A stretch of DNA of 41,637 nucleotides from Chloroflexota bacterium (lineage in GTDB: Bacteria; Chloroflexota; Dehalococcoidia; Dehalococcoidales; UBA2162). Location: contig JACPPR010000053.1 of the NCBI GenBank assembly GCA_016190895.1, positions 1-41,637 of the forward strand. The letters are read 5' to 3'. Positions within the stretch are counted from its first letter, which is position 1. Each line of letters starts with the position of its first letter. Below the pieces are notes generated by a model. The model searched no databases, was not told the origin of the DNA, and was given only the letters and a program-made list of their open reading frames with translations. Of the stretch, positions 11,060-21,153 are shown one piece after another. Both the position numbers and the translations under genes were made by a program.

Positions 11060-11076
11060 TATTCAATTTAAGGTAC

Positions 11077-11118
11077 AAAAAAAGGAGGATGCCATTACAG
11101 ATGGCATCCTCCTTTTTT
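11077..11118 (+). terminator. Rho-independent terminator of the IMPDH-family gene
   Basis: AAAAAAAGGAGGATGCCAT-TACAG-ATGGCATCCTCCTTTTTT; perfect long stem with T-tract. Confidence 0.93.
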
Positions 11119-11171
11119 AGGTGGCAAACTGTTACCGGTTACTCGGCGTTGTGCACCTGGAACCGAGCTTG

Positions 11172-11898
11172 TCAATTGAGCAGTCGTGGCACCTCCTCTA
11201 GTCTGCTGATTATAAAGTCTGCCCTGATGCTTTCACTTTCAGGTGTAGATTGTCGCCCGGGGTTAAACCAGCAGGCGAGCATCCCGCCTTTAGCGCCAAT
11301 GACATCATCGGCATATGAATCTCCTATGTGCAAACACTCCTGAGGACGAACTCGTAACGAGCCAGCCGCATAGTAGAAAATTTCCTCTGGTCGGGCTTCT
11401 TGATACCGATTTCTTCAGACAGCACGATGCAGGAAAACAATCCACTTACGCCCATCGCCTCCAGCCTCTGCCGTTGCGGGATTGACGGCCCATTGGATAT
11501 TGCTCCCACCGGCATTCGGCGACTGAGTTCCTCCAACAGAGGCACGGCCCCTTCCGTCGCGGCATCCACCGTTGCGGCGCTATCGACGTAGGCTTCGGTG
11601 ACAGCATCCGCCAGGTCGTCGGAAAGATTCAGAAGCTGGAGGAATAAGCTGGTACGCTTTCGCCGGAGGCTATCGGCAACCAGTCCTTTCTGGAGTCGCC
11701 AGCGGTCAGTCGGTGAGACTGAGCAAACGCCTCAGAGATTTGCCTGATTGTCAGAGAGTCGAAGACTTTCGGAAACTTACGCACAATACATTCGAGGATT
11801 CTCCTCTGTGCCAACTCCTGGTCGAATAGAGTGCCGTGAATATCGAATAGTACTGCCTTTAGGGTCTTTTCCATTTTTTCTTTGTCCTCTTTCCGCAT
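11172..11898 (-). pseudogene. HAD-superfamily hydrolase, frameshifted at two places
   Basis: KAVLFDIHGTLFD (motif I, ORF 11629..11898), PVGAISNGPSIPQRQRLEAMGVSGLFSCIVLSEEIGIKKPD (ORF 11324..11569), then hand-translated ECLHIGDSYADDVIGAKGGMLACWFNPGRQ (motif IV) ending with TGA at 11172; three parts in different frames. Confidence 0.85.
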
Positions 11899-12074
11899 TT
11901 ATACAAGAGGCATAATAAAATGGAACAAGACCAAAGCGGTATCAGACAAGTCCGATTTTGGGATAAGGACACGGGGAGATTTCTTGTAGGATTAAGCCTA
12001 CACTTGAGATAAGCGGAAGCTGCAGAAATGAAATTGGGTTTCTGGTTATTGTGAGGCCGGTTTACAACGTTCCT

Positions 12075-12148
12075 GTCATTCCCCGCTTCAGGCGGGGAAT
12101 CCATATCGATGGAGGTTTTTGGATTCTCCGGTCAAGCCGGAGAATGAC
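12075..12148. repeat. GTCATTC...GAATGAC two-hairpin dispersed repeat
   Basis: GTCATTCCCCGC-TTCAG-GCGGGGAATCC ... GGATTCTCCGG-TCAAG-CCGGAGAATGAC; copies at 28982..29054 (opposite orientation) and 32202..32266. Confidence 0.75.
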
Positions 12149-12171
12149 AAACAAACTCGCATTATCACTTT

Positions 12172-13128
12172 TTAGGGGGAGAGATAAAACTTCTTTAGCA
12201 CTTCCTCAGCGGGCTTGCCATAAGGTATGGCGCTGGTATCTTTTGGTCCGCCTAGCCCCGCTTGAGCGCGCCACTCCCACCAGAATATTCCCGCCAGCCA
12301 GGGCTTTCCCCATAGGACTTCCAGCGCGGCCTGGTAGCAATCGGCCTGCTCCTGGAGGTCCACCGGCGCTGTGCTCGTCCAGTTGAGAGGCCATTTGTTA
12401 GCTCCATCCTGGCTTCTATAGCCAAATTCTATGGCGATGACCGGCTTGTTAAACTGCTTTGAAAGGTTTTCGATGGCTGCCAGGTAGCCTTTCTCCGTCC
12501 AAGCTGCCTTTAGTTCTGCCACCGTTGGGTCGTTCTTGTCGGTCAACGGGTAGAAAGGCTGCCAGCCGATGTAGTCCACCGCATCCCACCATTTTATGCG
12601 TACGTCCTCGCCATCGGAAAGGGAACCCTGGGCGTAAAGGGCGGCATAGGTAATCGGTCCCTTAAACCGCTCGCGGGCCTCTTTGATAACCCGTCGCCAG
12701 TCATTCTCCCGTTGCGTGGTCCCGACCAGCGCGTCTCCAATGACCAGCATATCCACGCCAGCTTCCTGACTGAAAGTGGCGTAGTAGTTGAGAAGTTCGC
12801 GGTACGAAGCGAACCACTCCTGCCATTGTGCTTCACTGGTAAAAGCTATCCCGATTTCACGCTGCGTATGCACTGGGTCGTTAGATAAATCGACATTAAC
12901 CAGCAGCGCGACTCTCATTCCAAGGCCGTGGGCCAGGTCAATCATGCGCTTCAATTCGGCATCCGCAGCCGTGCGAGGTTGTGTACGAAATACTTTCGTC
13001 GACGCGATTGTTTCCTGGCCGACATTGACGAGCAGCGATATCCAATTAGCCCCTGTTGCGGCGAGGTTTTTCAAAGACTCGTCAGCCCTGGGGGGGGCGA
13101 TAAAGCCCCCATTGCGCCGGTGCGGCAT
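12172..13128 (-). CDS. Second GH113-like TIM barrel, displaced 3' portion of the response-regulator fusion
   Basis: ADESLKNLAATGANWISLLVNVGQETIASTKVFRTQPRTAADAELKRMIDLAHGLGMRV... is collinear with the barrel inside 13082..15778; joined by removing one C from a C8 run at 13090..13097. Confidence 0.8.
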   Translation of the reverse strand: MPHRRNGGFIAPPRADESLKNLAATGANWISLLVNVGQETIASTKVFRTQPRTAADAELKRMIDLAHGLGMRVALLVNVDLSNDPVHTQREIGIAFTSEAQWQEWFASYRELLNYYATFSQEAGVDMLVIGDALVGTTQRENDWRRVIKEARERFKGPITYAALYAQGSLSDGEDVRIKWWDAVDYIGWQPFYPLTDKNDPTVAELKAAWTEKGYLAAIENLSKQFNKPVIAIEFGYRSQDGANKWPLNWTSTAPVDLQEQADCYQAALEVLWGKPWLAGIFWWEWRAQAGLGGPKDTSAIPYGKPAEEVLKKFYLSP

Positions 13129-15778
13129 CGAAGTTTTTCCAGTCGGTAAAATTGAACCCCTTCATAAAAGCGTCGGGAAGAGGCAGTGGACGGGTTGGCG
13201 CCGCCTCTGTTTGTCCGGGCGCTTTCTGAACGGAGTTCGATACTGTTGGTGCCGGTTGGGAGTAGAACTTCTTCAAGACATCTTCGGCGGATTTACCGTA
13301 AGGCGTCTCACTACCGTCGCCCGGTCCACCTATCTGTGTAACCCACCATTGCCACCAGAAGATTCCTTTCAGCCAGGGCTTGCCCCACAAGACCTCCAGG
13401 GCCGCCTGGTACAAATCGGCCTGCTCCTGAATGTCCACTGGTGCGCTACCTTTAGGAACATTGGGTTTCTTGGCGGCCCCATCGGTACTTAGGTACATTA
13501 ATCTGAGGATGACCGGCCGGTCAAACTGTTTTGCAAGGCTTTCCAGATGGGTCAGGTACCCCTTCTCCGTCCACGCGGCTTCCAGCTCCACCAAGGTCGG
13601 GCTGTTTTTGTCAGTCAAAGGGTAAAAAGCAAAGACGGAAATGTAATCCAATGCGTCCCACCATTTTATGCGTGCGTCATCGCCTGAAGTGCCGCCGGTA
13701 GCAGGGTAGTATGTAATAGGGCCTTGGTATCTCTGGCGTACGTTAGCAGCTATCCGGCGCCAATCCTCCTCCCGATGGATGGTGCCCCCCAACTGGGCAC
13801 CAATGGCCAGCGCATCCACGCCGGCCTCCTGACTGAAGGCGGCGTAATGGTCAATCATCTCTCGGTAGGATGCGAACCACTCCTGCCACTGGGCTTCGCT
13901 GACAAAAGCTGTCCCGATGTTACCCTGACCAAGGGCAAGGTCGGCAGCGACGCTTACCCGCGGCTCCAGCAAAACCCTCATCCCGAGGTTGTGCGCCAGG
14001 TCAACCATGCGACGCAGCTCGGCGTCCGTGGCCGTACGAGAGGACGTACGGAATATTTTCGTCGAGGCGATTGTTTCCTGGGTGACGCTGACGACCAACG
14101 AAATCCAGTTAGCGCCAGTGTCGGCGAGGTTTTCCAGGGACTTGTCCGCCATAGGAGAACTGTAAAGGCCTGGTGGAGCATCGAAGGATTTCCAGTCTGC
14201 GAAAGTCATCCCTTTCATAAACACATCCGGAGATGGCAGAGGCCTGGCAGGGGTTGCTATGGACGTGGAGTTTGCTGCCGTTGAGGCGGGGGATGACTGG
14301 CCTCCGGAGGAGAAGGGCTTCGACCCCCCACCGTACCCACCAACAACACGTATCATCCAGTTAACGTTATCTCTTGTAGCCCACCGCGATCCCGGGCCGA
14401 AGACAGGCCAATCCTGCCGCTCCTCGTGGCCGCCCTCGGATATCGGGCGCGTGAGGCCGGAATGCTCGTTCTTGGCACTGTCGTCTGCTCCGATGAACAC
14501 TCCCGTCAGAGGTCTGGAACCAGTCAATACGTGCGCATAGAAATCAGACTGCACCTCGATACCCGGCACGGGGATTTCCACCCACATCGCCGCGCTCATC
14601 GCCTGAGGAGGGCTATCGACCGCTGGGAATAACGTTGAGGGGAAAGCGGCGCTGTAGATAACCTTACGGTCCTGGTCCCAGAGTTGCAGGGTGAACTCCG
14701 GCCTTTCCGAAGGCAGCGCTGCACCGTTCATCCTGACCCGGTTGATAACGAAGGGAACAAAAGGCGGCGAAAAATGGACCAGGTAGCCGCCGGAGTCGGC
14801 GTGCACGTAGATTTCAGCTTGCCCGTCATCATGCTGGAGTTCCAGCGCCTTCGGAAGCGCAATAGATGTGCCATCCGCAGGTACGCCTGTTTCGTCTGGA
14901 ACTGCGCCAGACGGCGGAGCCGATTGTACCCGCCAGACGATTACCCCTGCCGCCACGCCAATAATCGCCAGGGTAACCGCAAACCATTGGGGCTTTCTCA
15001 AGAAGCTCGCCCGCTGTTTGTGAACTTCAGGCGCAGGACCAGCCGTCGACTGAGGAAGCTCACTTACGACATCAATCCCAGCGCCGCAGAAGGCGCAGTA
15101 CCTCACTACCTGCGGATTTTCCTGCCCGCATTTCTGGCAGCGCACGGTTCTGATATCAACGAATTGAGTATAATAGTGGGCCAGTTCGACATTGTTCTTG
15201 AGATTCAGCTTTTCCAGCACCCTCGAGCGGTAGGTGCTGATAGTCTTGACGCTTAACGACATCTCATTGGCAATTTCGCTAACTGTTCTGCCGAGGGCGA
15301 GCTTGCCCATTACCTGATACTCGCGGTCAGAAAGTAACTCATGAGGCGGCTTTTCCGTGCCCCTGACTAGTTCCGAAGCCAGTCTTTCACCGAGGGAAGC
15401 GCTGACGTATTTGCCGCCGTTCGAGATCTTCCTCACCGCCGTCAACAATTCGTCCGGCGTGCATGCCTTGGTGAGATAACCGGATGCGCCGGCCCTGAAG
15501 GCACGCATCGCCTCATCTTCGTCCACGTGAGAGCTCAGTACCAGAACAGGAAGGTGGGCATTTTGGCTCTTGAGTTCTTTGATTATGTCCAGCCAGCTTC
15601 TGCCCGGTATGGAGGTATCTAATAAGACCACATCATAGGAGTTTCTGGATATCTGGCTGAATACATCCTGGGCGTTGCTGGCCTCACCGGAGGCAACCGT
15701 GTCCCGGCTGCCAGCAAGAATCTGTTTCAATCCTTCCCTGGCAATGGCGCTTTCTTCCGCGACTAGTATTCTAAACAT
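13082..15778 (-). CDS. NarL/LuxR-type response regulator + zinc ribbon + TM + exported beta-rich region + GH113-like TIM barrel
   Basis: REC (VAEES..VVLLDTSIPG..LTKAC), HTH_LuxR (LSDREYQVMGKLALGRTVSEIANEMSLSVKTISTYRSRVLEKLNL), CQKCGQ..YCAFCG ribbon, TM WFAVTLAIIGVAAGVIVW, barrel from FMKGMTFADWKSFD. Confidence 0.88.
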   Translation of the reverse strand: MFRILVAEESAIAREGLKQILAGSRDTVASGEASNAQDVFSQISRNSYDVVLLDTSIPGRSWLDIIKELKSQNAHLPVLVLSSHVDEDEAMRAFRAGASGYLTKACTPDELLTAVRKISNGGKYVSASLGERLASELVRGTEKPPHELLSDREYQVMGKLALGRTVSEIANEMSLSVKTISTYRSRVLEKLNLKNNVELAHYYTQFVDIRTVRCQKCGQENPQVVRYCAFCGAGIDVVSELPQSTAGPAPEVHKQRASFLRKPQWFAVTLAIIGVAAGVIVWRVQSAPPSGAVPDETGVPADGTSIALPKALELQHDDGQAEIYVHADSGGYLVHFSPPFVPFVINRVRMNGAALPSERPEFTLQLWDQDRKVIYSAAFPSTLFPAVDSPPQAMSAAMWVEIPVPGIEVQSDFYAHVLTGSRPLTGVFIGADDSAKNEHSGLTRPISEGGHEERQDWPVFGPGSRWATRDNVNWMIRVVGGYGGGSKPFSSGGQSSPASTAANSTSIATPARPLPSPDVFMKGMTFADWKSFDAPPGLYSSPMADKSLENLADTGANWISLVVSVTQETIASTKIFRTSSRTATDAELRRMVDLAHNLGMRVLLEPRVSVAADLALGQGNIGTAFVSEAQWQEWFASYREMIDHYAAFSQEAGVDALAIGAQLGGTIHREEDWRRIAANVRQRYQGPITYYPATGGTSGDDARIKWWDALDYISVFAFYPLTDKNSPTLVELEAAWTEKGYLTHLESLAKQFDRPVILRLMYLSTDGAAKKPNVPKGSAPVDIQEQADLYQAALEVLWGKPWLKGIFWWQWWVTQIGGPGDGSETPYGKSAEDVLKKFYSQPAPTVSNSVQKAPGQTEAAPTRPLPLPDAFMKGFNFTDWKNFDAAPAQWGLYRPPQG

Positions 15779-15827
15779 TGCCTCTATCTACAGCAGTAGA
15801 GGGAATACCTGCTATCGGACTAAAGGG

Positions 15828-16625: not shown

Positions 16626-16639
16626 TTTCTTTCTCCTGA

Positions 16640-16710
16640 GCCAGCGAAGAGAGTCGAACTCTTGACCAGCGGTTTACGAAACCGCTGCTCTACCACTGAG
16701 CTACGCTGGC
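16640..16710 (-). tRNA. tRNA-Thr (anticodon CGT)
   Basis: Reverse strand GCCAGCG TA GCTC AGTGGTA GAGC A GCGGT TTCGTAA ACCGC TGGTC AAGAG TTCGACT CTCTT CGCTGGC; complete 71-nt cloverleaf. Confidence 0.95.
16674..16710. repeat. attL core: 37-bp direct repeat (5' half of tRNA-Thr)
   Basis: TTACGAAACCGCTGCTCTACCACTGAGCTACGCTGGC, identical to 26048..26084. Confidence 0.93.
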
Positions 16711-16775
16711 ATGTTGGCATTATTTGAGGCTAATTCGCCGGATTTTGCGAAATCAGATAACTTGTCATAACCCAT

Positions 16776-16797
16776 TTTGCTACCCGATTGCTACCCA
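16776..16797. promoter_or_regulatory. Putative integrase arm-type sites (left)
   Basis: TTTGCTACCCGATTGCTACCCA; 20/22 match with 25910..25931 near the other end. Confidence 0.5.
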
Positions 16798-16802
16798 ACG
16801 GT

Positions 16803-17960
16803 CTAATCAGCCCCTTTCCCACGCTCATTATTATAGACGGTGGCCAAGGCTTCGTCAAAGCGAACTGCGGCGGCTTCCTGCATCCCCGGAGCTACGTGGC
16901 TGTATATGTCCAGGGTCGTGCTGATTGTGGCGTGCCCTAGTCTTTCCTGGGCTACTTTTGGGTGTACGCCCTGTTTCAGTAGCAGGCTGGCATGGGTATG
17001 CCTGGCATCATGCAAGCGAATATACTTAAGCCCGGTCTGGCGCACCAACTTAGTCCATGCGTGAGTCACGGTATCCGGGCGCAATGGGTCGCCGTTAATA
17101 TCACTAAACACAGGGCTATCGCTAGCGACTCTACTGCCCACAAGCAAACGCTCTGAAACCTGTTTTTCCCAATGCCGCTTGAGCAAGAGAGTGGCGGAAG
17201 GCGGGAGCGCTATCGTGCGCCGTCCCTTGGCTGTCTTGGGGCTTGAAAAGAAGACCTGGCCGCCTTTCAGGACATGAAGGGCACGATTGACCGATACTTG
17301 GCCAAGCATTAAGTCAACATCGCTCCAGCGCAAGCCAAGTACCTCGGAACGTCTCATTCCAGTAAATAGACTGATATAAAAAAGGGGATAGAGAGGGTGT
17401 GGCTGTGCGGCTTCGAGAAACGTTGCCATCTCGTGCTCGTCCCAGATTTGCATCTCTGTCCGTTTCGGCCTTGGCAATTCGACAGCATCAGCCAAGTTAT
17501 GATTGAGCAAGCCCCACTTAACGGCAGTCTGCAAGGCTTTGTGAATTACCATAGCGTGGTGCATGACTGTCATAGCACTCAGGCCATCGTTAAGCCTTTC
17601 TGAATAGTAGTTTTGCAGATGTTGCGGCCGGAGCTGTGTAAGGGTCAAGTGCCCCAAAGCCGGTATGGCGTACGTGTGGAATATCTGAGCGTAGCCTTGA
17701 GCCGTTCTGGGTGAAAGATTAGCGCGTGCGTAATCCTCTAGCCAACGTTCAAAATAGTCTCCCAGACTGGTCTTGTCAGGCTTAACGAAAGTGCCGGTAT
17801 CCAACTGGCGTAGAAGCTCGGTAAGACGCTTCTGGGCTGTCTTACTATCGCCCTTGACGGATACCCACTGGCGCTTGCGCTTGCCGGTTACCGGGTCTGC
17901 TCCTAAACTCAGCACGATGGAATAACTGTCTTTACCCCTCTTGACGATGTGACCTCTCAT
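16803..17960 (-). CDS. int: Tyrosine-type site-specific integrase
   Basis: TGMRRSEVLGLRWSDVD (Arg I), HDARHTHASLLLKQGVHPKVAQERLGHATISTTLDIYSHV (H-x-x-R ... Y). Confidence 0.95.
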   Translation of the reverse strand: MRGHIVKRGKDSYSIVLSLGADPVTGKRKRQWVSVKGDSKTAQKRLTELLRQLDTGTFVKPDKTSLGDYFERWLEDYARANLSPRTAQGYAQIFHTYAIPALGHLTLTQLRPQHLQNYYSERLNDGLSAMTVMHHAMVIHKALQTAVKWGLLNHNLADAVELPRPKRTEMQIWDEHEMATFLEAAQPHPLYPLFYISLFTGMRRSEVLGLRWSDVDLMLGQVSVNRALHVLKGGQVFFSSPKTAKGRRTIALPPSATLLLKRHWEKQVSERLLVGSRVASDSPVFSDINGDPLRPDTVTHAWTKLVRQTGLKYIRLHDARHTHASLLLKQGVHPKVAQERLGHATISTTLDIYSHVAPGMQEAAAVRFDEALATVYNNERGKGAD

Positions 17961-18802
17961 GGCTTGCCTCCTTCGGCTATGCTCTCCGTAGTCTTGGCTC
18001 TTAGCCTGTCAAAAACTCCCTGGCGGGTGAGTTCCGCGCGGAGATTGAAGAAGCTCCCGGTGATTGCCCGCTCCTGGCAGCGTGGGCATGCCTTGTCAAA
18101 CACGAGGTAGACACCTTCAATCTTGTGGGGTTGCTTATGACCTTCCACGGGTCCCACAAACAATGGCTCTTTCGAAGACTGCGTATTGTGCTGAGCAACG
18201 AAGTCGTTGAAATGTCTGATACCTCTGCTGAGCGCGGTATCAAGCTCTGAGGTATCGCAAGGGACATTGGCGAAGTCGCAAAGCAACTCATAGTCGGCAT
18301 AAGCAGCGGAAACTGAAAATAGCGTTCCCGGGTAGAAGTCATGGGATGCTTCGACCTTGAACCATTCATCCGCGTCAACCTGCTTCCTGACAATATCATA
18401 GAGACGGGCGGCCCAGAGGGCTTGTCTCAGTCTCAGGGAAGCAACGTCCGGGTTAACCCTCTTTGCTACTTCCGGGTCGCTATTCTCTAGCGACATCTTC
18501 AAGAGCCCATACATGTATCTCAGGTATTCTTGCGTTTCAAGGATATGCCTTATTGCTTCAGCCGAAAGGTGCGGGTAATCTCGTAGCAAGCCTAGATGCC
18601 AGGGGCGCTCCTTCTCTTGAAACTCCGGTGTATTCTCTATTCTTTTTGCCTCTGTGACGATTGTTTGTATTGACCGCAGACTAGGTTTTTTCCCCCTGAG
18701 CTTAAATATCTCTTTGGGGCCGAGTCCTTGTCTATACAACGCAATAACAGCCTCTTTTACGTCCCCTGTTATGCGTGGTCTCTTAATTTTTGTCTTTGCC
18801 AT
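17957..18802 (-). CDS. Hypothetical protein: N-terminal HTH-like segment, C-terminal CxxC
   Basis: 281 aa intact ORF; GDVKEAVIALYRQGLGPKEIFKLRGKKPSLRSIQTIVTEAKRIE; ...KACPRCQERAITG; overlaps the int start by ATGA. Confidence 0.7.
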   Translation of the reverse strand: MAKTKIKRPRITGDVKEAVIALYRQGLGPKEIFKLRGKKPSLRSIQTIVTEAKRIENTPEFQEKERPWHLGLLRDYPHLSAEAIRHILETQEYLRYMYGLLKMSLENSDPEVAKRVNPDVASLRLRQALWAARLYDIVRKQVDADEWFKVEASHDFYPGTLFSVSAAYADYELLCDFANVPCDTSELDTALSRGIRHFNDFVAQHNTQSSKEPLFVGPVEGHKQPHKIEGVYLVFDKACPRCQERAITGSFFNLRAELTRQGVFDRLRAKTTESIAEGGKP

Positions 18803-18967
18803 TTGTTAGCCTCATGATTCGCAATGTTTCGTTTTTGCTGTATCTATATTGCGCTATTTGCGTTTGACAGTCTAAAGCGGTTGCTGTTTACTATCATTAG
18901 TATTGCGTGGTTAGTTCGAGTTTAGCACTGCTGATAGCGGTTGTCAAGAGGCGAAAGGGAGGTCTTG

Positions 18968-19159
18968 ATGGAAAGCGAGAAGTTGTACACGGTTCGGGAA
19001 GTCGCAGCCAAGCTAAGAGTCTCAATCCAGGCTGTACGGCGGTACATCACGGAAGGACACTTGAATGCGGTCACGCTGCCAGGTGGCTACTACCGGATTC
19101 CGGAAAGCGAGCTGAGCAAAATCACACAGCCGGAAGCGCCAGTAACGCAGTCGAAATAG
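18968..19159 (+). CDS. MerR/excisionase-type HTH protein
   Basis: LYTVREVAAKLRVSIQAVRRYITEGHLNAVTLPGGYYRIPESEL; start chosen at the internal ATG with GGGAGG upstream. Confidence 0.82.
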   Translation: MESEKLYTVREVAAKLRVSIQAVRRYITEGHLNAVTLPGGYYRIPESELSKITQPEAPVTQSK

Positions 19160-19169
19160 GGGGTATGGG

Positions 19170-19370
19170 ATGGTAGAAAAACTTTGCCTGAATGTGGCTG
19201 AGGCCAGCCGATTATTAGGACTGTCGGAAAGTCTGACCTACCAGCTTTGTCGGGAAGGGAAAATCCCTTGCCTGAAAATCAGCGAAAGGCGCATCCTGAT
19301 ACCGCGTCTTCAGCTTGAGCGTCTTTTGGCTGAGGCTGGGGGCTTGGGGGGCCGGGGGGAGCGGGGGTAG
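19170..19370 (+). CDS. Excisionase-family HTH protein
   Basis: CLNVAEASRLLGLSESLTYQLCREGKIPCLKISERRILIPRLQLERLL. Confidence 0.8.
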   Translation: MVEKLCLNVAEASRLLGLSESLTYQLCREGKIPCLKISERRILIPRLQLERLLAEAGGLGGRGERG

Positions 19371-19377
19371 GGAAGAC

Positions 19378-21153
19378 ATGGCTGACTTTTTGGCTATCGC
19401 GTTGAGTGAATCCCAGCAAGGGCGGCGTGTATTCCCGCTAAGTGGGAAAGTGCCCGCAATCCCCAAAGACAAAGGCGGGAACGGCTGCCTTGACGCCACG
19501 ACTGATGAAGTCCGGATTGTGGAATGGGCAGCCTTCTATCCTGATTGTAACGTGGGAATCGGATTTTTTGATGATAGCCCTGAAATCGGGCTTGATGTGG
19601 ATACAGACAATCTCCCCATCTGGCAAGCATACGAGAAGCAATACGGACTGATTGACACTCGACTTGTCGCAACGGGCGGGGGCGGTTGGCACTACTACTT
19701 CCTCAGGCCGCCGGGAATCGCCCTGCCAAACATATCTAAATTCGAGCGCAAGGGCTTTGAGCTGAAGTCCAATGTCCAGTATTTGGTAGCCCCTGGAAGT
19801 GTTCACCCGGTTAGCGGAAAAGTCTATGAGCTTGTCCGCGACATTAACCCCCAGCCGCTGCCGGACTGGTTAGTCAAGATTTGTTTGAATCATAAACCAA
19901 CCGGGCAAGCAAAGACAGCCGATAAGAAGATACCAGTGGGGGAGCGCAATAGCTACCTATTCAGAATAGGCTCTGGACTTCGGGCAAAGGGTATGTCGTT
20001 TGAGACAATCTCAGCTACTATCCGGGCCGCCTACGGGAACGATTGCGACCAGAATCCGCCGATGGATGATAAGGAACTTACCACGATAGCCACGCAAGCG
20101 GCAAAATACGAGCAAGGGAAGCCCTCGGAGCCGGGCAATACCCACAAGCGGGATGATAATGAACCTACCAGCTTAAAGGTAGTCAGCTTGTCAGAGGTTC
20201 AGGCTAGTCAAGTAAGCTGGCTCTGGAAGCCATATATTCCATTGGGCAAGTTCAGCTTGTTAGAGGGTGACCCCGGCGTTGGCAAGTCCTGGGTAACGTT
20301 GGCGATAGCGACCGCCGTCAGCAATGGGATAGCTTTGCCCGGTGATACCAGTGGGAAAAACCTCGCTGTGTTGATTGCCAGCGCGGAAGATGGGCTATCA
20401 GATACCATCAAGCCCCGCCTGGCAGCTATGGGGGCTAACACGTCTGAAATTCACGCAATAGACGGGCTGTTTACTCTGAATGATAAGGGCTTTGAGATGT
20501 TGGAGGCTGCTATCATCGAGACGTTTCCGGGACTTATTATTATTGACCCACTGGTTGCCTACCTATCCGGCGAAATGGACATTAACAAAGCGAATCAAGT
20601 CCGGCATGCCACCAGCCGTTTAGCAGCTCTAGCCGAAAAATATAATACCGCCATCTTAGCAGTCCGGCACTTAACAAAAGGTGGCAGCCAAAAAGCCATT
20701 TATAGAGGACTTGGAAGCATTGACTTTACCGCCGCCGCCCGTAGTGTGCTTATGGCAGGGGCTGACCCTGATGACCTTAACATCCGGGGGATCGTCCACA
20801 TCAAGAGTAATCTTGCGCCTTTGGGAGAAGCTAGGGGGTATGAGTTAAAGCCAGGGGCTTCAATACCCTTTGCCTGGACTGCTGCTTGCCACTTGACGGC
20901 TGAAAAGATAATGGGCGGTGAGGACACAAGCGGTAGTAGCCTTCAAGAAGCTGTAGATATGATTAATGATATGCTTTCGGGCGGCCCGGTGCCGGCAACG
21001 GACATTTTTACCGAGGGGGAAAGTAGGGGACTTTCAGAAGCCACTATCAAGCGGGCTAAGTCGAAAATGAAGATACACGCCTACCGCGAAGGAACGGAAG
21101 GGGTGAAAGGCGGTGGTAGGTGGTGGTGGGAAAAGCCGAAAAATGAAGATTAA
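19378..21153 (+). CDS. Bifunctional DNA primase/polymerase (prim-pol) with RepA-like AAA helicase
   Basis: GNGCLDATTDEVRIVEWAAFYPDCNVGIGFFDDSPEIGLDVDTD...ATGGGGWHYYF (primpol) and GKFSLLEGDPGVGKSWVTLAIA...LIIIDPLVAYL...RHLTKGG (AAA_25/RepA type). Confidence 0.9.
   Translation: MADFLAIALSESQQGRRVFPLSGKVPAIPKDKGGNGCLDATTDEVRIVEWAAFYPDCNVGIGFFDDSPEIGLDVDTDNLPIWQAYEKQYGLIDTRLVATGGGGWHYYFLRPPGIALPNISKFERKGFELKSNVQYLVAPGSVHPVSGKVYELVRDINPQPLPDWLVKICLNHKPTGQAKTADKKIPVGERNSYLFRIGSGLRAKGMSFETISATIRAAYGNDCDQNPPMDDKELTTIATQAAKYEQGKPSEPGNTHKRDDNEPTSLKVVSLSEVQASQVSWLWKPYIPLGKFSLLEGDPGVGKSWVTLAIATAVSNGIALPGDTSGKNLAVLIASAEDGLSDTIKPRLAAMGANTSEIHAIDGLFTLNDKGFEMLEAAIIETFPGLIIIDPLVAYLSGEMDINKANQVRHATSRLAALAEKYNTAILAVRHLTKGGSQKAIYRGLGSIDFTAAARSVLMAGADPDDLNIRGIVHIKSNLAPLGEARGYELKPGASIPFAWTAACHLTAEKIMGGEDTSGSSLQEAVDMINDMLSGGPVPATDIFTEGESRGLSEATIKRAKSKMKIHAYREGTEGVKGGGRWWWEKPKNED

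Follow-up and report, generated by a model that had tools for sequence, protein, structure and literature searches.

A response regulator fused through a membrane helix to a GH113-type barrel in a Dehalococcoidales genome, a candidate one-protein glycan receptor

The window analysed here is a contig of 41,637 nucleotides (JACPPR010000053.1, assembly GCA_016190895.1) from a Chloroflexota bacterium of the order Dehalococcoidales. On its minus strand, positions 13082-15778 form a single frame of 898 codons that starts with ATG and contains no internal stop. The ORF, Pfam matches, hydrophobicity and modelling showed, at the level of sequence, the order of parts in the predicted 898-aa fused protein: receiver, LuxR/NarL helix-turn-helix (HTH), zinc ribbon, transmembrane (TM) helix, beta-sandwich and GH113 barrel 1. 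The receiver (aa 4-116, 15431-15769) was recognized by alignment and by Pfam Response_reg (1.4e-22), and the HTH (aa 148-202, 15173-15337) by alignment and by Pfam GerE (6e-16). The zinc ribbon, CxxCG..YCxFCG (aa 214-233, 15080-15139), matched Zn_Ribbon_1 (2.3e-5) with 24.5 bits, slightly below the Pfam cut-off of 25 bits. The TM helix (aa 266-284, 14927-14983; FAVTLAIIGVAAGVIVWRV) is the sole strongly hydrophobic segment of the protein and, since the basic KQRASFLRKPQW stands before it, an N-in/C-out orientation would be expected from the positive-inside rule. The jelly-roll beta-sandwich (aa ~307-485, 14324-14860), which is predicted to be exported, and barrel 1 (aa 532-813, 13340-14185; Pfam 9e-59) complete the chain.

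The REC-HTH model matched LiaR, VraR, RcsB and NarL (AlphaFold and Foldseek), and with the receiver and GerE matches this identifies a NarL/LuxR-type response regulator. The full-length AlphaFold model confirmed the receiver, the HTH and barrel 1; owing to a poor mixed alignment, its TM and beta regions are not reliable. A first-pass annotation made from the letters alone had proposed this domain order on the reverse strand, ending in a GH-like barrel, and had called for a check of the TM topology. The ORF, Pfam and AlphaFold/Foldseek confirmed the order, and the topology check returned one TM segment, with N-in/C-out expected.

A second GH113 barrel (barrel 2, 12172-13128, minus strand; Pfam 3.7e-63, PDB 5ylh at 5e-37) follows in a shifted frame, as the first-pass annotation had also noted; past the meeting point of the frames, the barrel occupies 12172-13080. 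Both barrels belong to GH113 by sequence and fold, in agreement with their earlier description as GH113-like: Pfam recognized each, and the barrel 1 model matched 5yli/5ylh with a Foldseek TM-score of 0.84-0.85 by target. The two frames come together at eight consecutive C on the coding strand (13090-13097), the only C or G run of at least seven in the window. Seven C would preserve the frame and read GLYRPPRADESLKNL, the same as the relatives; in a 2.6-kb slice, the open run would then be 739 codons and not 436. The run may carry an error in its length, may be the product of a recent mutation or may serve as a slip site through which barrel number varies, and barrel 2 would be part of the same receptor as barrel 1. 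A systematic assembly error at all C8 runs was unsupported, as several other runs of eight or more C in the genome sit within intact long frames; most of these runs are inside intact frames or intergenic. On another contig, eight consecutive G interrupt a small gene (L217 around 3894, G000:C23) in the same way as at barrel 2, and one G fewer mends its frame. A HAD-like hydrolase gene beside the fusion in the same insert (11060-11898, minus strand) is split over three frames.

We compared the barrels with GH113 enzymes, taking the positions of the catalytic Glu residues from PMC10992819 and AxMan113A; in PcMan113 the two are E152 and E232 (PMC10992819). The acid/base position is Glu in 12/13 GH113 relatives and Asp in the remaining one; barrel 1 has Gln there and barrel 2 has Ala. 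All 15 relatives compared retain the nucleophile Glu, as does barrel 2, but barrel 1 lacks it. Neither barrel thus carries the pair of catalytic Glu that marks GH113 (Gln and a missing residue in one, Ala and Glu in the other), and this loss weakened the reading of the protein as an active mannanase. Several substrate-contact residues vary among the GH113 relatives too, so mannan specificity should not be assumed for the barrels and their ligand need not be mannan. The GH113 relatives within the order are lipoproteins that look active. One such lipoprotein gene is divergent from a histidine kinase and response regulator pair (L075:5185-9760, G463:C8). Between barrels 1 and 2, dN/dS was about 0.20, a rough value because dS is high (1.44); the sequences suggest that the barrels evolved under constraint, which counted against decay.

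The beta-sandwich had no Pfam family in a search of the segment, and its relatives are mostly found in lipoproteins of one family within the class. Its model (pLDDT 83) is a jelly roll for which the Foldseek matches included the CBM6 and CBM35 folds as well as other beta proteins. Because these matches are weak, the model only suggests a carbohydrate-binding role.

The nearest relatives of the REC-HTH part are plain soluble regulators of about 210 aa from the same class, and most of the close relatives examined sit downstream of a PAS/HisKA_3 kinase gene. The alignment showed that the receiver keeps the phospho-Asp (Asp-54), Ser and Lys; the Asp and Lys had been pointed out in the first-pass annotation. 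Its acidic pair is EE, versus DD in nine relatives. Of the positions that are invariant in these nine related regulators, 10 of the 34 in the receiver are changed, acidic pair included, and none of the 15 in the HTH (Fisher p 0.02); leave-one-out analysis of the relatives gave at most 5/39. The branch length of the window regulator was 0.58 versus a median of 0.29. A HisKA_3-type kinase search of the fusion's contig found none, bearing out for this type, across the contig, the earlier remark that no histidine kinase is visible. The genome carries many HisKA_3 kinases, and the best kinase relative in it is only 34-35% identical. The HisKA_3 query also returned an orphan kinase-like protein (L218:1406-2227:-, G000:C39) with no Pfam match at 0.001, in which the phospho-acceptor His is seemingly replaced. 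In another family of the order, a response regulator of the same clade (L011:1297-2304:+, G018:C91) has Asn in place of the phospho-Asp (VVLLNSITPG), a C-terminal TM tail and no adjacent kinase; as judged from its sequence, it is a second membrane-anchored, receiver-degenerate regulator.

The fusion lies in a 4.77-kb stretch (11060-15827) between two conserved genes that, in five relatives, stand next to each other without it. There, the upstream gene (P0003) adjoins the IMPDH-like gene, the two being convergent with 5 to 53 bp between them. A chimeric contig was rejected as unlikely, given that both flanking genes are conserved and are adjacent in these five relatives. Elsewhere in the window (16638-21153), a tRNA-Thr lies near genes for a tyrosine integrase and a primase-polymerase, probably an integrated element.

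The first-pass annotation had proposed looking for the same REC-HTH-TM-barrel architecture in other Chloroflexi, and no second case emerged from searches of up to 399 genomes each. None was found by a whole-protein search of 61 genomes, by GH113 searches of 12, 156, 393 and 399 genomes (overlapping sets), or by two class-wide scans (393 genomes), one using the middle part as query and the other the REC-HTH-zinc-TM part. In the whole genome-contig collection, the 898-aa query matched nothing closer than distant GH113 or zinc-ribbon proteins, and it had no match among viral contigs. Among the genomes searched, the fusion is therefore known from one draft genome (79% complete), and its absence elsewhere is provisional because the class-wide scans cover a sample of a larger group. 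The open literature searched held no precedent for membrane-bound response regulators.

The best explanation for the locus, to which we give about an even chance, is that one fused gene encodes a DNA-binding regulator tethered to the membrane and bearing a glycan-sensing ectodomain. An ancestral NarL-type response regulator probably served a PAS/HisKA_3 kinase, and its natural C-terminus would have been joined to a zinc-ribbon/TM/exported protein with a beta-sandwich and GH113 barrels. The barrels, having lost catalytic residues, would most likely bind glycan and not cut it. Ligand bound outside could alter how the proteins cluster or dimerise across the TM helix, or could lead to cleavage near the membrane, and the cytoplasmic HTH would thereby be switched on or off independently of a cognate kinase. 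The proposal of the first-pass annotation that the barrels act as sensors is partly supported by the sequence. It gains support because catalytic residues are lost in both barrels, because a degenerate receiver stands beside an intact HTH and because the lipoprotein relatives look active; receiver degeneration and kinase loss would fit a changed mode of control. If real, the protein would be a case of a two-component response regulator that, once fused to a retired enzyme, became a transmembrane receptor able to work without a kinase, so that a single protein could sense extracellular sugars and control genes within the cell. From an uncultured lineage, it would also offer a glycan-sensing switch that can be tested, and the enzyme-to-sensor step would be directly testable by comparing the dead barrels with their active-looking relatives. 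More tentatively, and with a chance clearly below even, there may be a class of one-protein carbohydrate receptors consisting of a kinase-less tethered response regulator with a dead GH113 tandem as sensor and a poly-C slip site that perhaps varies barrel number.

The junction between the HTH and the zinc ribbon bears on whether these parts are one protein at all. The HTH ends in QFVD, where the relatives have QLVD at their C-terminus, and IRTV and the zinc ribbon follow. The HTH thus ends at the stop point of the relatives and, three codons on, a typical zinc-ribbon N-terminus begins with an in-frame GTG (codon 212, 15143-15145, minus strand), a possible internal start. A TGA in another frame falls exactly at the junction. 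These features, along with the neighbouring frame breaks if read as local indels, would suit two tandem genes, a regulator ending at about residue 207 and a zinc-ribbon/TM/GH113 protein starting at GTG-212 (MRCQKCGQEN...), with the stop lost by a small assembly indel. We consider this unlikely, if still deserving of some weight. No Shine-Dalgarno precedes the internal GTG or TTG, and one is present for most of the window genes checked; by inspection of the frames, no single-base change yields a regulator tail clearly like those of the relatives. The degenerate receiver and missing kinase fit altered control, and the relatives yielded no stand-alone zinc-ribbon/TM/GH113 gene, their GH113 proteins being lipoproteins.

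The frame break before barrel 2 and the HAD gene lying in three frames make decay or sequencing error a live rival. Pseudogene erosion in a non-essential insert could account for the fusion, the lost catalytic residues and both broken genes, and the long branch of the regulator and the absence of the insert from relatives point the same way. Against erosion, 2.7 kb remain open without a stop, the HTH is intact at 15/15 conserved positions, the barrels appear constrained and barrel 2 stays open for ~300 codons beyond the break, so that we regard a decaying locus as rather unlikely. The retained phospho-Asp and Lys and the many HisKA_3 kinases of the genome would also be compatible with a regulator still under kinase control, whose ectodomain would serve only to anchor or present a glycan-binding surface protein, with no outside-in signal. 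This seems improbable in view of the altered acidic pair and other receiver invariants, the contig free of such a kinase and the low identity of the genome's best kinase relative.

By analogy, the proposed tethered receptor would most likely be a ToxR/RsgI-like regulator and a member of neither family, since the chain was checked for a domain that defines each of them and has neither. In the RsgI anti-sigma factors of Clostridium thermocellum, the exported sensor binds polysaccharide and may be of GH type, as with the GH10 domain of one member (PMC12203970). Like them, the fusion would have a cytoplasmic regulator part with its N-terminus inside, a single TM helix and an exported GH-type domain (PMC12203970), but its cytoplasmic part is a response regulator with an HTH and not an anti-sigma domain. 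Pfam found no RsgI anti-sigma domain in the chain, whose N-terminus is REC-HTH, and, unlike RsgI, the fusion has no identified sigma partner or autocleaving periplasmic domain (the beta domain is without a Pfam match). The RsgI comparison drawn in the first-pass annotation may hence stand for the way of working and fails for membership. With ToxR/CadC, the fusion shares an N-terminal DNA-binding domain, one TM helix and a C-terminal exported input domain in one protein (PMC5430869), and its predicted topology agrees with this type. However, its HTH is of the NarL/LuxR type (GerE in Pfam) and lies behind a receiver, in place of the OmpR-type winged HTH of ToxR/CadC, and its ectodomain is derived from GH113.

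The GH113 mannanases (AxMan113A 5ylh, AaManA, PcMan113; PMC10992819) and the same-order GH113 lipoproteins share fold and sequence family with the barrels, but not the loss of catalytic Glu (both in barrel 1, the acid/base in barrel 2) or the tether to a regulator. The same-class NarL/FixJ-type regulators downstream of PAS-HisKA_3 kinases are about 40-64% identical to the REC-HTH part; they are soluble and mostly kinase-paired, whereas the regulator here is fused, orphan and degenerate in its receiver. The Bacteroides hybrid two-component systems combine carbohydrate sensing with a receiver and HTH output in one protein (PMC3404733), as is proposed for the fusion. Unlike these, the fusion has no histidine kinase domain, as Pfam gave no HisKA or HATPase match within the 898-aa chain. 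Three PAS domains, HisKA_3, HATPase, a receiver and an HTH were observed in a single 889-aa chain at another locus (L209:1894-4563:-, G257:C516).
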